DNA of 33,244 nt from Coriobacteriia bacterium (GTDB taxonomy: Bacteria; Actinomycetota; Coriobacteriia; Anaerosomatales; PALSA-660): NCBI GenBank assembly GCA_023252055.1, contig JAHEXP010000012.1, positions 1 through 33,244 of the forward strand. The letters are read 5' to 3'. Position numbers and translations under genes: made by a program. Positions 3,336 to 17,371 of the stretch are shown here, one piece after another. Below the pieces are notes generated by a model. The model saw only the letters and a list, made by a program, of their open reading frames with translations. It did not search any database and was not told the DNA's origin. Each line of letters begins with the position of its first letter. The stretch's first letter is position 1.

Positions 3336-4763
3336 CTAGATGTCCCCACCCTTCGCGTCTCCAGCGTTCGGGTGGTACTTCGGGATGAACTCGCGCACGC
3401 GCTTCAGCTCACCCATCGGCAGACCTGCGAGCAGCTCCCACGCAACGGTCAGCGTGCCCTCGATCGAGCGGCCTTCCTGGCCCTGACCGATGATCGTCTT
3501 CTCGAAGTCGTCGGCGAAACGCAGGTACCGGCGGTCCGTGTCGGAGAGCGCTTCCTCGCCGACGATGGCGACGAGACGGCGGAGGTCGCGGCCCTGGGCG
3601 TACGCAGCGTAGAGCTGGTTCGCCACGGCGCGGTGGTCCTCACGCGTCTTGCCCTCGCCGATACCGAGGTTCATCAGGCGGCTCAGGCACGGCAGCACGT
3701 CGATCGGCGGGTAAACGCCGCGGCGGTGCAGCTGGCGCGAGAGCACGATCTGACCCTCGGTGATGTAGCCGGTAAGGTCGGGGATCGGGTGCGTGATGTC
3801 GTCGTCGGGCATCGTCAGGATCGGGAGCTGCGTGACCGAGCCCTTGTTGCCTTTGATGCGGCCGGCGCGCTCGTAGATCATGGAGAGGTCGGTGTACATG
3901 TAGCCCGGGTAGCCACGGCGTCCCGGCACCTCTTCGCGTGCGGTCGAGACCTCGCGGAGCGCCTCGCAGTAGTTCGTCATGTCCGAAAGGACGACGAGGA
4001 CCTGCATGCCCTTTTCGAACGCCAGGTACTCGGCGACGGTGAGGGCGACCTTCGGGGTGAGCAGACGCTCGACCGTCGGGTCGTCGGCGAGGTTCATGAA
4101 GAACACGACGCGCTCGAGCGCTCCGGTGTCCTCGAACTGCTGCATGAAGAACGCGGCCTCGCGGTGGGTGATGCCCATCGCGCCGAACACGATCGCGAAC
4201 TCTTCCCCGCTGCCGACGCGCGCCTGGCGGATGATCTGCGCGGCGAGGTCGTTTGCGGGAAGGCCGGAACCCGAGAAGATCGGGAGCTTCTGGCCACGGA
4301 CGAGCGTGTTGAGGCCGTCGATCGCGGAAACGCCGGTCTCGATGAAGTCGGCCGGCTGCTCGCGGCGGTACGGGTTGATCGGTGAACCGGTGATGTCGAG
4401 GCGCTTCTCAGGGATGACCGGGGCGCCACCGTCGATCGGCTTGCCGGTGCCGTTGAGCACGCGGCCCAGCAGCTCGGGCGCGACCTCGACCTTGGCGACC
4501 TCTTCGAGGAAGCGAACGGTCGTCTTGTCGACGTCGATGCCGCGGGTGCCTTCGAAGACCTGGATGACGGCGATGTCGCCGGAGATCTCCAGGACCTGAC
4601 CGGTGCGGATGCTGTCGTCCGGCATCGAGATGGAGACCATCTCGTTGTATGCCACGTTGTGCACGTTGTGCACGAAGATCAGAGGTCCCGTGACGTACTC
4701 GAGGGTCCGGTAGTCGGTCGACAGGAGGGAGCGACTCGAGGTCTCTTCAGCGGTCGGCGTCAT
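3336..4763 (-). CDS. ntpB: V/A-type ATP synthase subunit B (non-catalytic)
   Basis: This 475-residue protein alternates with subunit A in the hexameric head. The P-loop position reads [17 protein letters not shown] at about residues 161-177, the degenerate form typical of B subunits, which do not hydrolyse [14 protein letters not shown] near residue 103, [17 protein letters not shown] and [13 protein letters not shown] are further family blocks. Length is normal for the family. The ATG at 4763 directly abuts the stop codon of subunit A with no spacer, so translation is probably coupled and A:B stoichiometry kept equal. Confidence 0.97.
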
Positions 4764-6518
4764 CTAGAGCACCTCGATTCCGGCGATGTCTTCGGCGAGC
4801 GTGGTGGTGTAGGTCTTCATCTCTTCGATCGCCTCTTCGTGCGGGGTGGTCTTGAATCCGGCGATCTTGTCGCGGATCGGGAGCTCGAGGATCTGGCGGA
4901 GCGAGACGCCCCGGTTCAGGGCCGCAACGGACGCATCCGAGAACGCGAGGATGACCTTGAGGATCCAATACGCCTTCAGCGGCGGGCAGTACGCGTCGAC
5001 CTCGTCGAACGCGAACTGCTGCAGGAAGTCCTCGCGCAGCATGCGCGCGACCTCCAGGATGATCTTCTCGGACTCAGGAAGGGCGTCCGGTCCGACCAAC
5101 TGCACGATCTCCTGGAGCTCCGTCTCCTTCTGCAGGATGAACATCGCGCGATCGCGATAGGACACCCAGTCGCCAGCGACGTTGCTCTCGTACCAGCCGC
5201 GCACCTGGCCGAGGAACAGCGTGTAGCTCTTGGTCCAGCTGATGGCCGGGAAGTGACGGCGGTGGGCCAGCGAAGTGTCGAGCGCCCAGAACGCACCGGT
5301 GACGCGCAGGGAGTTCTGCGTCATCGGCTCGGACATGTCGCCGCCTGCCGGCGAGACAGCGCCGACCATCGTGACCGAGCCCACGCGGTCTTCGCCGCTG
5401 CCGAGCGTCTTGACACGGCCGGACCGCTCGTAGAACGAAGCGAGACGGGTCGCGAGGTAGGCAGGGTAGCCTTCCTCACCCGGCATCTCCTCGAGTCGAC
5501 CGGAGACCTCACGGAGCGCCTCGCCCCAACGGGACGTGGAGTCCGCCATCATGGCGACGTCGTAGCCCATGTCGCGGTAGTACTCGGCCAGCGTCGCGCC
5601 GACGTAGATGGACGCCTCACGTGCGGCGACCGGCATGTTCGAGGTGTTGGCGACGAGAACCGTACGGTCCATCAGCGGAGCGCCGGTGCGCGGGTCGTCG
5701 AGTTCCGGGAACTCGGTGAGCACCTCGGTCATCTCGTTGCCGCGCTCGCCGCAGCCGATGTAGACGATGATGTCGACGTCGGCCCACTTGGCGAGCGACT
5801 GCTGCGTGACCGTCTTCCCCGTGCCGAAACCGCCCGGGATGATGGCGTTGCCGCCGAGGGCGATCGGGAAGAACGTGTCGAGGATCCGCATGCCCGTGGT
5901 GAACGGGGTCGTCGGATCCAGCTTGCGCACGTACGGACGGCCCTCACGGACCGGCCAGCGCTGCGTCATCGTGAACTCGGTGCCGTCTTCCAGCCGGGCA
6001 ACGACGGTATCGACGTTGTAGTCGCCCGAAGGGATGACCCACGCGAGTTTGCCGGACCTCTTGGGCGGGACCATGACCTTGTGGACGATGGTCTTGCCTT
6101 CCTGGACCGTGCCCAGCACGTCGCCCTGGACCAGATCGGCGCCGACCTCAGCCACGGTCACGAACGGCCACAGCTTGGTACGGTCGAGCGCGGAGGCCAC
6201 CGTACCGCGCAGAATGAAGTCGCCACTCTGCTCTGCGATGACCGGCAGCGGGCGCTGCACGCCGTCGTAGATCGACGACAGAAGACCCGGGCCGAGCTCG
6301 ACGGTCAGCGGCGCCTCGGTCGACTCGACCGGGTGCCCGACCATGAGCCCCGAGGTGTCCTCGTAGACCTGGATCGTCGCGTGGTCAGCCTCGAGCCGGA
6401 TGACCTCACCCATGAGCCCCTGCGCGCCTACGCGAACGACGTCGTACATCTTGGCGCCGGTCATGCCGGCGGCCACGACGACGGGGCCGGTGATCTTGGA
6501 GATGCTTCCTGCGATCAT
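4764..6518 (-). CDS. ntpA: V/A-type ATP synthase catalytic subunit A
   Basis: A 584-residue catalytic subunit. It begins [13 protein letters not shown], has the Walker A loop GGFGTGKT at residues 229-236, [11 protein letters not shown] at about 253-263 with the conserved glutamate, and [19 protein letters not shown] downstream. The region at about 110-200 is the insertion specific to V/A-type A subunits and absent from F-type beta. It couples ATP synthesis or hydrolysis to ion movement on the inner face of the membrane. Start and stop codons abut those of subunits F and B without spacers. An intact P-loop and normal length indicate a functional enzyme. Confidence 0.98.
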
Positions 6519-6851
6519 CTATCCTCGCCTCAGTGTTATGTCGAATCCGATTGCCCGACGGATCAGGCGTGACAAGTAAGCCCTGTGGTCCTCGCCGATG
6601 CTCAGCGTTTCCTTGATCGGCAGGGAGACCACGATCGGGCGGTAGATCGAGTCGATCTTGCGCTGCAGACGCTCGTCCACTGCGGTCATCAAGGCCTCGT
6701 TCACGGCGATGATGCCGCTCGTGTCGTCGTCGACGAGCGCGGACAGCGAACGGCGCGCCTCTTCCGGCGACTCCGCCACGACCACGTCGCACCCGGACAG
6801 GCGAAAGCCGTCCGCGTGCTCCGGGTCGGTCAGGACGACGAGCTTATACAA
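6519..6851 (-). CDS. ntpF: V/A-type ATP synthase subunit F
   Basis: A 110-residue central-stalk subunit that binds D and modulates ATPase activity. The start is decided by family length and homology: a TTG at 6851 gives (M)YKLVVLTDPEHADGFRLSG, aligning with the usual MYKIAVIGD-type start, and is preceded by GGAAGGA about eight bases upstream. The TTG lies inside the last codons of subunit C (eight-base overlap). A longer open frame upstream to 6998 reads through subunit C in another frame and has no family similarity. SGIIAVNEAL and the C-terminal PIVVSLPIKE block fit the family. Confidence 0.9.
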   Translation of the reverse strand: MYKLVVLTDPEHADGFRLSGCDVVVAESPEEARRSLSALVDDDTSGIIAVNEALMTAVDERLQRKIDSIYRPIVVSLPIKETLSIGEDHRAYLSRLIRRAIGFDITLRRG

Positions 6852-7932
6852 GGATGAGTTCCTTCCGCATGCGGTCTGCGGGCATGCCGACAGACGTGCC
6901 CTTGACGATGATCCGCAGGTTCGTGATCTCGTTCTGCTTCGCCCACAGGTAACCGATCGTGATCCCGACGCCCAGAGGATCGCCGCGCCCGGCATCAAGC
7001 GCCTTGCGCATCACGAAGTCCTCCAACGCTCGTTCGAACACCGACAGCGAGCCTTCGTCGACGTATGTGGCGATGACCGCCTCGAGCTGCCGTGCGTACG
7101 GCGTGTTCTTGAGGCCGTCGAGCACTTCGTCAACATCCGACATCGCTGCGAGCGTACTGAACAGCGCCTCGTCCACATGGGCCCCGCCCGGCAGGAAGAA
7201 GCTCTTCGGATCGATGTCGCCGATGTCGCTCTTGAGCAACCGGAACACCGTCAGAAGGTTCACCGAGTCGGCCTGAAGGCCCAGGATCCGGCGCGCGAGT
7301 ACCGTGTTCGAGCGGCGGCCGGTCAGACGCGACGCGGCCCAGCTGAAGTAGTACCGGTCGAGCGCGAGTTCCAGAGTCGCCAGGTTGCCGCCCTCGCCGT
7401 ATGCGGCGAGGTTCTCCCGCAGAGGGACGGCGTAGGGAGACTCCCACGTGACGAGCGTGTCGACAACTGCGCGGATGTCCTCCAGGCCGACCAGGACGTG
7501 AAGGTCGGTGGGGGTCAGGGCGCCGACGGCGTACAGGCCGTCTTCGATCTCCTCGGGCTTCAAATGCATGTGCTTGCCGCGGATGATCGACTTGACGTTG
7601 AACATGTCCCAGCGGCCGAGCAGCGTACCCACCAGTGTGTGCGCCTCCGCGTTCAGGAAGCCCATCACCTTCTGGAAGTTCTCGACCATGTTCGCTCGCA
7701 GGGCCTCGTCCATCGCGGCCGGAGTGCGGCCATGGATGATCGCGGTCTCGATGTCGGGACCGTACCCCGTCTGGATGAGCATTCCGATGATCTTACTGAT
7801 ATCGGTGTGGCACATGAGCTCGTCGAAGTAGTGCGCGGTCAGCAGCCGTGAGCGCATCCCGCGCACGCGCGCGTTGCCGTAGCCGTAGTCACGGCCCGGC
7901 GTCGGTGCTTTCGTGGCCACCTGTGCACTCAT
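6844..7932 (-). CDS. ntpC: V/A-type ATP synthase subunit C
   Basis: A 362-residue member of the AC39/Vma6 family, the funnel-shaped connector between the central stalk and the membrane c-ring. Supporting features are GYGNARVRGMRSRLL at about residues 16-30, the block LRANMVENFQKVMGFLNAE, the segment DMFNVKSIIRGKHM, and the C-terminal GITIGYLWAKQNEITNLRII, a characteristic family ending. Length is normal. Its ATG overlaps the stop of subunit E by four bases (ATGA) and its end overlaps the start of subunit F. Confidence 0.94.
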   Translation of the reverse strand: MSAQVATKAPTPGRDYGYGNARVRGMRSRLLTAHYFDELMCHTDISKIIGMLIQTGYGPDIETAIIHGRTPAAMDEALRANMVENFQKVMGFLNAEAHTLVGTLLGRWDMFNVKSIIRGKHMHLKPEEIEDGLYAVGALTPTDLHVLVGLEDIRAVVDTLVTWESPYAVPLRENLAAYGEGGNLATLELALDRYYFSWAASRLTGRRSNTVLARRILGLQADSVNLLTVFRLLKSDIGDIDPKSFFLPGGAHVDEALFSTLAAMSDVDEVLDGLKNTPYARQLEAVIATYVDEGSLSVFERALEDFVMRKALDAGRGDPLGVGITIGYLWAKQNEITNLRIIVKGTSVGMPADRMRKELILV

Positions 7933-8507
7933 GCGGACAGGACCTCCGCGATCTCGGACTGGCCCAGCGTCTTGAACTTCGCCAGACGGTCCTCGAGCGT
8001 GTTGCGCCGCAGCATGCTACCGCCGTCGGCGACGACGGTGAGACCGCCGCGCGTCGAGCCGGTCGCATCCACACTGGCGCTGAGACCCGACGACTTCACG
8101 AAGTCCTCAGCGAGCGACGCGTCGGCCGGATCGACCAACAGCACCAGCTCCCCATCGAGCCCGGCGACCGCTTCCTCAGCGAGCGCACGGAACAGCGCAG
8201 GGTAGCCGGCACCCGAACGGACGGACGCGAGCTTCGCGAGCGCCTCGTCGAACGCCTGCACGATGGCGCGCTCCTTGACACCTGCGACGGCACGACGGCC
8301 TTCGAGGCGCGCGGAGTTGACCGAGCGTGCCGACTTCAGCGTCGCATTGGCGCGAGCCGCCTCGACCCTGGTGTCGCGGATGAGCTTCGCCTGCTCCTCG
8401 GCGTCTTCCTTGATGCCGTGAGCCTGCTCGTGAGCCGCATCGACCGTCTCGCGGCTCTCCTGCTCGCCCTGCTCCTCAAGCGCTATGAAGATGTCTTCGA
8501 TTGCCAT
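7929..8507 (-). CDS. ntpE: V/A-type ATP synthase subunit E
   Basis: A 192-residue peripheral-stalk protein. The N-terminal half (about 1-100) is a charged, alanine- and glutamate-rich helix with no proline, as expected for the coiled coil formed with subunit G/H. The C-terminal half carries GGLTVVADGGSMLRRNTLEDRL, close to the conserved GG...D....N.TL..RL block of E subunits. The ATG at 8507 has AGGGGAG about seven bases upstream. It lies 41 bases after the c-subunit gene, the longest gap but one inside this operon. Confidence 0.92.
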   Translation of the reverse strand: MAIEDIFIALEEQGEQESRETVDAAHEQAHGIKEDAEEQAKLIRDTRVEAARANATLKSARSVNSARLEGRRAVAGVKERAIVQAFDEALAKLASVRSGAGYPALFRALAEEAVAGLDGELVLLVDPADASLAEDFVKSSGLSASVDATGSTRGGLTVVADGGSMLRRNTLEDRLAKFKTLGQSEIAEVLSA

Positions 8508-8548
8508 ACCGGACTCCCCTGCTTTCCTTGCGTCTTAATGGAGAGTCT

Positions 8549-8866
8549 CTAGCCCTTGATCATGATCGCGGACACGAAGCCCAGGAGCACGATGACTTCC
8601 GGCAGCGCCTGGAGGGTGATGACCCAGATCGCGACCTCAGGACGCTCGGCGAGCGTGCCGGCGCCGGCAGAACCGATCTTGGCCTGCGCGTAGGCGGCGC
8701 CCAGCGCAGAGAGGCCCATTGCGAGGCCGGCGGCCAGAGCCTTGCCGACAGCTTCCTGCCATGCGACAGGGGCTGTTACTTCCGCCGCGAAAGCCATCGC
8801 CGGAACCAGCAACGCGGTCAAGAACACTCCTGCTGACAGAACCTTCGTGAGACGCTTGTCCATCAT
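8549..8866 (-). CDS. ntpK: V/A-type ATP synthase proteolipid subunit K (c-ring)
   Basis: A 105-residue hydrophobic protein. Residues 1-27 look like a Sec signal peptide (basic start, hydrophobic core, AFA before a possible cleavage at 27/28); the rest is one helical hairpin: helix about 38-68 containing GLSALGAAYAQAKIG, loop AERPE, helix about 78-103. Glu90 in LQALPEV is the expected ion-binding carboxylate, with Gln61 and Gln86 nearby. It is therefore a single-hairpin c subunit rather than the duplicated four-helix V type. Whether it carries H+ or Na+ cannot be settled. Its ATG overlaps the stop of subunit I (ATGA). Confidence 0.93.
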   Translation of the reverse strand: MMDKRLTKVLSAGVFLTALLVPAMAFAAEVTAPVAWQEAVGKALAAGLAMGLSALGAAYAQAKIGSAGAGTLAERPEVAIWVITLQALPEVIVLLGFVSAIMIKG

Positions 8867-10878
8867 GCTTGCCCTTCTCTTCCTGTCTTGCGGAACGGAC
8901 TGTACTGCGTGTTTCCAGCCTCAAAGAACTTCCCGAAGAACTCGAGGAAGTTGAGACGCATTGCATGGATCGCCGGGCTGAACGCGGAGATGAGCAGGTT
9001 CAGCGCGTGGAGGACGACTCCGAGCAGGACGCCCATGATGATGCCTGCGCCGCCGCCCTTCGACATGTCCACGACGATCCCGTTGATGGCGGAGGCGAAG
9101 ATGGCGCCTCCGAGACCGACGGCCATGATACGGATGTAGCTCGCGATGTGGGTGACGGACTCGACCGTCTCCACGACGCCCATGACTCCACCGCCCTTGA
9201 CGGCGAAGATGAATCCGCCGAAGGCGATCGCGGCGAACACGAACTGTCCGACGAGGCCGACCGTGCCGAGCGACGATCCGGCGACCCCGACGACGATCGC
9301 GATGCCCATCGCGACGAGCAGCACAAGGATGCCGCCGCGCTCCTGCAGGTGGTGCTTGTTCTTCGTGCGGACCGCGTTGATCACGCCCAGTGTGAGCCCG
9401 AGCAGGATCTGGATCACGCCGACCGCGAGCGCGAGGTACATGAACTCCATGTACAGCGTCTCACGGGCGAACGGCAGTGTGAACGGAAGCATGAGCGGCC
9501 CGATGTGGTTGATCGGGACGATGAGGTTCAGCATCTCCTTGCCGAGCGTATCGCCGAAGAACTCACCGTAGAAGATACCGAAGACGATGCACATCGTCGC
9601 CGCCGGGCCGAGGATCGACGTGGCGGTCTGGATGCCCTCGTTGTCCTTGAACTTGGCGCGCAGCCAGAGAACGAGGATGAGGTAGAGCAGGCCGTAGCCG
9701 ATGTCGCCGACGATCATCCCGAAGAACACCGGGAAGAACAGGAACAGCGACCAGGTCGGATCCAGCGTGCCGTACCGCGGAAGTCCGCGGGCGTTCAGGA
9801 TGAACTCGAACGGCTTCATCGCGGCAGGGTTGTCGAGCTGGACCGGAGTCTCCTCCATGTCCTTCTCAGTGATCTCCTTGCGGTTGATGATGACGTCCAT
9901 GCCGAAGTTGGCCTGAACGTCCTTCTCCAGCGTGGAGAGGTCCGAGACGGGGAGCCAGCCGGTGATGACGAAAGCGTACTCGGTCTGCCCGAACTTCGGG
10001 ATGGCCGCGATCTCGTCGATCTTGTCGGTCAGCACGTCACGGATGGTGGTGAGGCGAAGCAGCCACTTGGCCGACATCGACTCGAGCTCGAGCCGGATCG
10101 CCTTGAGCTCGTCCGGCAGCGTCTTGCGGCGCTCGCGGATGGACTCGTACGCCTGATCGAACGGCAGGCCCTGCATGTCGTTCGGGAGGCGGATCTGGTT
10201 GACGTTCTCCATCGCCAGGAACTTGTGCACCGGCTCGGAGTACGTGCGCGAGAAGACGACGATGGCCGCCGTGGTGTCTTCATCCACGTCGGTGGACACG
10301 ATGTCGCACTGCTTGTGCGTGATCGTGTCGAGTTCTTCCTTCAGCTGCTCGAGGAGCCCCTTGTAGCGGCGCTCCACGAGGAGTGCGACGGAGTCGAACG
10401 CCCCGGTCGTGACGATCTGGCGGGCGAGCGGCTGGATCTTGTGGAGGATCGGCTCGTAGCGGCCCAGCAGCGAGATCTCGTTCTCGATCTCGGACTGGGA
10501 CTGCGCGAGCGTTGCGGTGCGCTCCTCGACCTCGTCGATGACCTTGACGACCTCGTCGGAGAGCTCCGCCGACCCGAGCTTCCACAGCTTCAGGTACTCC
10601 TTCTGGCGCGCGACCTCATCGATCGTCGTGCCGGGAAGGTGCAACGCCTTGATGATCGCGCGAACGCGGATGAGAAGATCCTCCATCCGCTCGCGTTCCC
10701 CCGCCTGTCCGACGGCAACAGCCATCTGTTCGACAGGCATCTCACCGCTACCGATCTTCTTCGTGAGATCCTCGATATGCAGTGTGCCCTGCTCATGGAG
10801 CAGCGTCACCACTTCGAAGAAGCGGTTCTTCGGTCCGATGATCTCGACCCGTGCCATCGGGACGAGCACGCGCCTCAC
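8863..10878 (-). CDS. ntpI: V/A-type ATP synthase subunit I (a-type membrane stator)
   Basis: A 671-residue two-part protein. The N-terminal half (about 1-350) is a charged cytoplasmic arm with coiled coils; the C-terminal half has about seven to eight membrane helices, beginning with LFLFFPVFFGMIVGDIGYG. THIASYIRIMAVGLGG in the late helices carries the arginine (YIR) corresponding to the essential ion-channel arginine of V-type a subunits. The start is uncertain: GTG at 10878 is the longest, a GTG at 10869 has GAGGGGG about eight bases upstream, and an ATG at 10857 gives MARVEIIGPK, where family similarity begins. Confidence 0.94.
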   Translation of the reverse strand: MRRVLVPMARVEIIGPKNRFFEVVTLLHEQGTLHIEDLTKKIGSGEMPVEQMAVAVGQAGERERMEDLLIRVRAIIKALHLPGTTIDEVARQKEYLKLWKLGSAELSDEVVKVIDEVEERTATLAQSQSEIENEISLLGRYEPILHKIQPLARQIVTTGAFDSVALLVERRYKGLLEQLKEELDTITHKQCDIVSTDVDEDTTAAIVVFSRTYSEPVHKFLAMENVNQIRLPNDMQGLPFDQAYESIRERRKTLPDELKAIRLELESMSAKWLLRLTTIRDVLTDKIDEIAAIPKFGQTEYAFVITGWLPVSDLSTLEKDVQANFGMDVIINRKEITEKDMEETPVQLDNPAAMKPFEFILNARGLPRYGTLDPTWSLFLFFPVFFGMIVGDIGYGLLYLILVLWLRAKFKDNEGIQTATSILGPAATMCIVFGIFYGEFFGDTLGKEMLNLIVPINHIGPLMLPFTLPFARETLYMEFMYLALAVGVIQILLGLTLGVINAVRTKNKHHLQERGGILVLLVAMGIAIVVGVAGSSLGTVGLVGQFVFAAIAFGGFIFAVKGGGVMGVVETVESVTHIASYIRIMAVGLGGAIFASAINGIVVDMSKGGGAGIIMGVLLGVVLHALNLLISAFSPAIHAMRLNFLEFFGKFFEAGNTQYSPFRKTGREGQA

Positions 10879-15097: not shown

Positions 15098-16927
<1,830 letters not shown>

Positions 16928-17054
16928 ATGTATGACCTCCCGGTCGTCTCAGATCAAGGATATGCCGACACAGGGCTCTTGGGCGTGAGTATCCCCGTGA
17001 GAGGAGCGCCCTGCACAGGCCGGCTACGCGCGATGGCGCGTGCGTGTCCCGGTT
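16928..17054 (-). other. glmS 5' untranslated region downstream of the ribozyme
   Basis: This 127-base segment links the ribozyme to the glmS ATG and holds no gene. It can form a hairpin ACGCGC-CATC-GCGCGT (17041-17026) and a long-range stem CAGGGC (17013-17008) with GCCCTG (16976-16971). The glmS ribosome-binding site (GGGAGG) lies at its end. The stems may simply insulate the ribozyme fold; I see no second ligand-binding motif. Confidence 0.5.
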
Positions 17055-17205
17055 CCGCCGCCGTTTTGTCTCTGCGGTCACCCGCAGGCTTTGTCGGAGC
17101 GGTCTCGACATCGGGAGGTGCCGGAGGGCCATCCGCCGAATCTTTCGATGAGCCCTCGCCTCGTCGACTGCGCATCTCTCGCGCAGTCCCGGCGCTTCAG
17201 TGGTG
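17055..17205 (-). ncRNA. glmS ribozyme (glucosamine-6-phosphate-activated self-cleaving riboswitch)
   Basis: On the minus strand, AGCGCCGGGACU starts at 17196, matching the conserved 5' core; cleavage is predicted between A 17196 and G 17195. P1 is GACTGCGC (17188-17181) with GCGCAGTC (17173-17166), loop of seven. It is followed by the conserved GACGAGG block (17165-17159), a stem GAGGGC (17157-17152) with GCCCTC (17129-17124), and inside it ATCGAAAGATTCGGCGGATG, closely matching the known family sequence. P4.1 is CTGCGG-GTGA-CCGCAG (17087-17072), a GNRA-capped hairpin flanked by ACAAAG and ACAAAA, and P4 closes with CCGC/GCGG. In Bacillus relatives GlcN6P acts as cofactor for cleavage and the cut mRNA is degraded, giving feedback on GlmS. 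The position, in the 5' leader of glmS, fits exactly. Confidence 0.92.
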
Positions 17206-17283
17206 CCGCACTGCTTCCAGTCTCGTCGCATCTCTCCTTCCGGAGCGGCTTCGCTCTCCGGCCGCGGGTGGCGGCCACCGCCC

Positions 17284-17289
17284 ATGCTA
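17284..17289 (-). promoter_or_regulatory. Candidate -10 element for the glmS transcript
   Basis: TAGCAT at 17289-17284 (minus strand), preceded by TTGC, could form an extended -10 element; transcription would start near 17277, about 80 bases before the ribozyme cleavage site. The transcript would open with GC-rich hairpins (GGTGGC/GCCACC around 17279-17267 and a stem in 17260-17241). No -35 match is evident, so confidence is low. Confidence 0.3.
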
Positions 17290-17345
17290 GCAAACCGCGC
17301 GGCGCTCGGCGGTCACGGTTCGGTGACGGCGCCAGGCGCGGTCGC

Positions 17346-17362
17346 GACCGCCCGTGGCGGTC
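17346..17362 (-). terminator. Stem-loop just after glmM, possible terminator
   Basis: GACCGCC (17362-17356) pairs with GGCGGTC (17352-17346) over a three-base loop, ten bases after the glmM stop. Two weaker stems follow at 17339-17328 and 17327-17312. No T tract is present. It could separate the glmM transcript from the ribozyme-controlled glmS transcript. Confidence 0.45.
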
Positions 17363-17371
17363 AGGACGGCT

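Follow-up and report, generated by a model that had tools for sequence, protein, structure and literature searches.

The leader of the glmS gene in the window (the whole stretch of 33,244 nucleotides that was analyzed) contains what is, by its sequence, an intact glmS ribozyme, and we hold with high confidence that it is a feedback switch turning glmS off. The glmS ribozyme emerges as a widely kept trait of one order of Coriobacteriia that is also spread over many families of Actinomycetota.

A search with cmscan matched RF00234, the glmS family of Rfam, on the minus strand at 17207-17046, with a score of 88.9 bits (E 1.9e-19) over model positions 1-167, compared to a gathering cut-off of 37 bits. 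No other Rfam family scored above its cut-off in the 33 kb window, and the 1.44 Mb assembly (98 contigs, 75% complete) yielded no second RF00234 match. An earlier sequence-only reading of this DNA had called a glmS ribozyme in the glmM-glmS gap, in the 5' leader of glmS, and had proposed the covariance search as a check. The significant match bears out this identity, and the TIGR01455 and TIGR01135 matches of the flanking genes confirm the location. The span given there, 17055-17205, was correct in place and slightly short in extent (Table 1). The sequence features on which the call was based are all found: the A/GCGCC block, with the predicted cut at 17196/17195 exactly as placed, the 8-bp P1, the GACGAGG block, ATCGAAAGATTCGGCGGATG, and the GNRA-capped P4.1 with its ACAAAG and ACAAAA flanks. 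The catalytic core blocks AGCGCC, GACGAGG, ATCGA, and TCGGCGG are present and unchanged in the window. A simple single-strand fold of the element has no unusual stability (z -1.34); the evidence is therefore the covariance model and covariation, not folding energy.

Table 1. Coordinates of the ribozyme, its parts and its neighbors in the window.
Feature	Position	Strand	Basis
glmS, glutamine--fructose-6-phosphate transaminase	15098..16927	-	TIGR01135, 843 bits
glmM, phosphoglucosamine mutase, upstream gene	17372..18703	-	TIGR01455, 540 bits
Candidate glmS promoter, extended -10-like TGCTAGCAT	17284..17292	-	sequence
Shine-Dalgarno-like purine tract GGAAGGAG, 38-45 nt before cut	17234..17241	-	motif in related leaders
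glmS ribozyme	17046..17207	-	cmscan, full RF00234 match
Predicted self-cleavage site A(17196)/G(17195)	17195..17196	-	AGCGCC block identical in 67/67 aligned class members
P1 hairpin, 8 bp (17188-17181 with 17173-17166)	17166..17188	-	Rfam structure and covariation
GACGAGG core block including first strand of P2.1	17159..17165	-	invariant 67/67; block part of collection pattern
ATCGA...TCGGCGG core	17133..17149	-	ATCGA and TCGGCGG invariant 67/67; GGCGG part of collection pattern
Candidate P2.2, GGCG able to pair with CGCC	17137-17134 with 17194-17191	-	complementarity
P2 (17157-17153 with 17128-17124)	17124..17157	-	two-sided changes across class
P3 hairpin	17106..17123	-	Rfam structure laid on class alignment
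P3.1 pseudoknot, UCCCG (17116-17112) with CGGGA (17051-17047)	17047..17116	-	P3 loop/3' tail complementarity, 72 ribozymes
P4	17056..17101	-	RF00234 match and class alignment
P4.1, GUGA cap (GNRA loop) 17081-17078	17088-17082 with 17077-17071	-	RF00234 match and class alignment

The predicted cut is 269 nt upstream of the glmS start codon (16927, MCGIVG), and a GGGAGG ends 8 nt upstream of the ATG. Neither a strict sigma-70 (two-hexamer) promoter nor an intrinsic terminator was found in 16900-17420. The extended -10-like element at 17292-17284 suggests that glmS may have its own transcription start; elements similar to it (TGGTATAAT, TGCTAGAAT) stand before the leaders of many relatives in the order. 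The same contig also carries genes of a V/A-type ATP synthase (subunits A, B, C, and I matched; window 3336-10878).

Ribozymes of the class were gathered with their flanks from whole genomes, using GCGCC, GACGAGG, and GGCGG as the collection pattern. The core blocks are identical across 67 aligned class ribozymes, the invariance of these three motifs being partly built in by the pattern. The helices were not part of it, and the alignment is a plain MAFFT alignment that was not fitted to structure. When the Rfam structure of the window is laid on the 67 ribozymes, standard pairs fill 85.0% of the helix cells, compared to 32.5-49.9% when the partners are slid by 1-3 columns. Two-sided changes are seen in 26 of the 36 pairs across the class. 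Thus, P1, P2, P3, P4, and P4.1 are supported by covariation, weakly so for outer P4, which is loose in the host's order and has an outermost Rfam pair that is mostly G-G. The strands of P2.1 and P2.2, which make up the double pseudoknot core, are complementary and invariant across the class and, as a result, yield no covariation; the role of P2.2 is taken from PMC7125110. P3.1 is not shown in the Rfam structure line. Complementarity between the P3 loop and the 3' tail in 72 ribozymes was 13.3, while the maximum of 300 permutations was 12.6, with some rows missed by crude parsing. P3.1 is supported, since loop and tail match better within their own sequence than in all 300 re-dealings. The leader position before glmS is kept in the 48 aligned ribozymes of the host's order. 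The compensating helices and the intact core in relatives are a sign of selection.

Compared to the glmS ribozymes of B. subtilis and Thermoanaerobacter tengcongensis (RF00234), the element shares the core, P1, P2, P3, P3.1, P4, P4.1 with its GNRA cap, and the position in the glmS leader. It differs in its GC-rich arms, its Actinomycetota host, its weak outer P4, and a class-conserved Shine-Dalgarno-like purine tract ahead of the cut.

Fold, intact core and location are observed, and the proposed switch adds to them the ligand dependence, cleavage and decay that would be expected from family members studied elsewhere. Transcription of glmS probably begins at its own promoter near 17284, and the transcript would fold into the ribozyme. 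GlmS makes GlcN6P, which would bind to the preformed pocket and act as a catalytic cofactor, and the RNA would cut itself between 17196 and 17195. The fragment bearing glmS, with its 5'-hydroxyl end, would then be degraded, probably by RNase J, resulting in less GlmS. In B. subtilis, self-cleavage of the glmS ribozyme is followed by RNase J1 decay from the 5'-OH end (PMC3997798). Each of the five relatives searched has RNase J; it was not found in the host assembly, which is 75% complete.

A ribozyme that still matches the model may have decayed, losing either its cleavage activity or its need for GlcN6P, and work cited in PMC11602151 indicates that a few active-site changes can abolish the ligand requirement. 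We consider such decay very improbable here, as the core is intact letter for letter and the helices still compensate in relatives. The origin of the locus can be read in other ways as well. A recent transfer of the ribozyme together with glmS from Bacillota would fit with the fact that the best-studied glmS ribozymes are in that phylum, where several GlmS loci carry one. However, in the GlmS tree the window protein pairs with that of a genome of the same genus (99%), and both fall within a clade (98%) of 23 GlmS from the host's order whose genes carry the ribozyme. This clade lies beside other Coriobacteriia and outside the Bacillota carriers, and the ribozyme occurs throughout the host's order, making the transfer highly unlikely. 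The deeper order of phyla is not drawn from this tree, because it is a quick tree with SH-aLRT support only.

Broadly speaking, the host is an actinobacterium: it belongs to class Coriobacteriia (Actinomycetota), and the nearest named GlmS, with 75% identity, is from a Coriobacteriia MAG of the host's order. That the contig is instead a foreign contaminant, from a host outside Coriobacteriia, is hardly credible: rpoA and ribosomal protein genes are located on the same contig, and a full-length match precedes glmS in each of four genomes of the same genus, although the assembly is fragmented (98 contigs, 75% complete) and could harbor such a piece.

Of 70 leaders, 57 have a Shine-Dalgarno-like purine motif at a distance of 20-50 nt upstream of the cut, compared to 12% of windows taken as background from the same loci; when ranked by the energy of pairing with the 16S tail, 47% of leaders fall in the top 5%. 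Measured against shuffled versions of each leader, the effect is modest (mean z -1.3, 35% at p 0.05), because the leaders are purine-rich overall. Three of the five Bacillota loci examined also have such a tract. No conserved start codon at the right distance from it was found in related leaders. An upstream frame in the window, which passes through the ribozyme and has an ATG at 17231 preceded by GGAG, was considered as a leader peptide; it was not called as such, because genus relatives keep the purine tract and not the start codon. A leader Shine-Dalgarno sequence can stabilize mRNA in Bacillus (STAB-SD, in work cited by PMC3997798). We suggest that the tract might shield the uncut mRNA, in which case the shield would be lost along with the 5' end on self-cleavage. 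The ∼70 related leaders raise the testable question of whether this conserved tract protects uncut mRNA.

Ribozymes above the RF00234 cut-off were found in 64 of the 398 sampled Coriobacteriia genomes, and in 75 of 396 genomes across Actinomycetota. The sequence-only reading had anticipated an uncommon case if the host were an actinobacterium. The actinobacterial host is upheld by the GlmS tree, while "uncommon" is too strong in view of these counts: the ribozyme is ordinary in the host's lineage. Within the host's order, the class sample contains 49 genomes with the ribozyme and at least 20 without it, some of the latter being incomplete assemblies. In the phylum sample, it is spread over at least 10 families outside that of the window (loci L223-L272), and glmS lies directly behind it in 46 of the 49 genomes whose loci were read, the other three having a glnA-glmS operon. 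This wide actinobacterial spread indicates that a view of the ribozyme as mainly one of Bacillota is too narrow. No glmS ribozyme was found in the sampled genomes of Collinsella, Enorma, Slackia, and Adlercreutzia, which may explain its seeming rarity in the best-known Coriobacteriia; the present data are compatible with loss in these genera as well as with separate gains elsewhere. According to a 2011 survey by McCown, all but two glmS ribozymes were reportedly in glmS mRNAs. The open-licence literature yielded no report of a glmS ribozyme with nagB, in Rubrobacter or in Coriobacteriia, and earlier reports of actinobacterial or nagB-linked cases may exist.

Another Coriobacteriia family (f18) has 24 ribozymes in 23 of its 140 genomes, all in two genera. 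Eleven of them precede glmS and 13 precede nagB, so that 13 of the 23 genomes have a nagB-linked copy (loci L140; L135, L137, L139, L141, L142, L144, L170; L176-L198). Both kinds occur in tandem on one contig of genome G395 (L140, 3282 and 5593). The nagB-linked ribozymes have the same intact core as that of the window, but their P1 has a few pairs only and nagB, rather than glmS, is downstream. The P4.1 loop is AAUCAACA in the nagB-linked copies read (e.g. L135 and L140 5593), and variable in the glmS-linked copies. In the 11 nagB-only genomes where glmS was found, no ribozyme core is present within 400 nt of it (in one genome, 189 nt could be read), and the GlmS proteins of these genomes branch separately (99/97) from those of genomes with a ribozyme on glmS. 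On contigs of sufficient length, nagB often has a hexapeptide transferase and a second glmM behind it. Such a second glmM is seen in L179 (11232-12560) and in L184 (5744-7048 and 4215-5531), the latter with another glmM close by.

The linked NagB is of the long E. coli type and keeps the catalytic motifs, with RTG replacing RTR. The eight linked proteins checked are without the arginine and lysine of RTRIK (RTGxR instead), residues that in E. coli NagB belong to the GlcNAc6P allosteric site. Their loss, with the catalytic motifs kept, is in keeping with a biosynthetic NagB. The linkage of ribozyme and nagB is itself observed. We offer, tentatively and as somewhat less than probable, the view that the Coriobacteriia glmS ribozyme is not tied to glmS and that, if GlcN6P is the OFF signal for the nagB operon, this NagB would be biosynthetic (ammonia and Fru6P to GlcN6P) and not a breakdown enzyme; both the enzyme direction and the switch logic are putative. 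These cases raise the testable question of why some Coriobacteriia place the same ribozyme on nagB.

In one genus (f51/g190), a ribozyme whose core is altered appeared at first to have glnA as a new target. This was rejected, as in three of the four genomes the same contig has glmS immediately after glnA, indicating that the ribozyme heads a glnA-glmS operon. Base pair 5-53, which is changed in this variant, is poorly conserved in the glmS ribozyme family (PMC7125110). The genus is a small AT-rich one of Actinomycetota, and its ribozyme (L239 230-472, L245 204-436, and L257 207-449) has two extra hairpins before AUCGA and a core of GCGCA or GCGAA with UCAGCGG.
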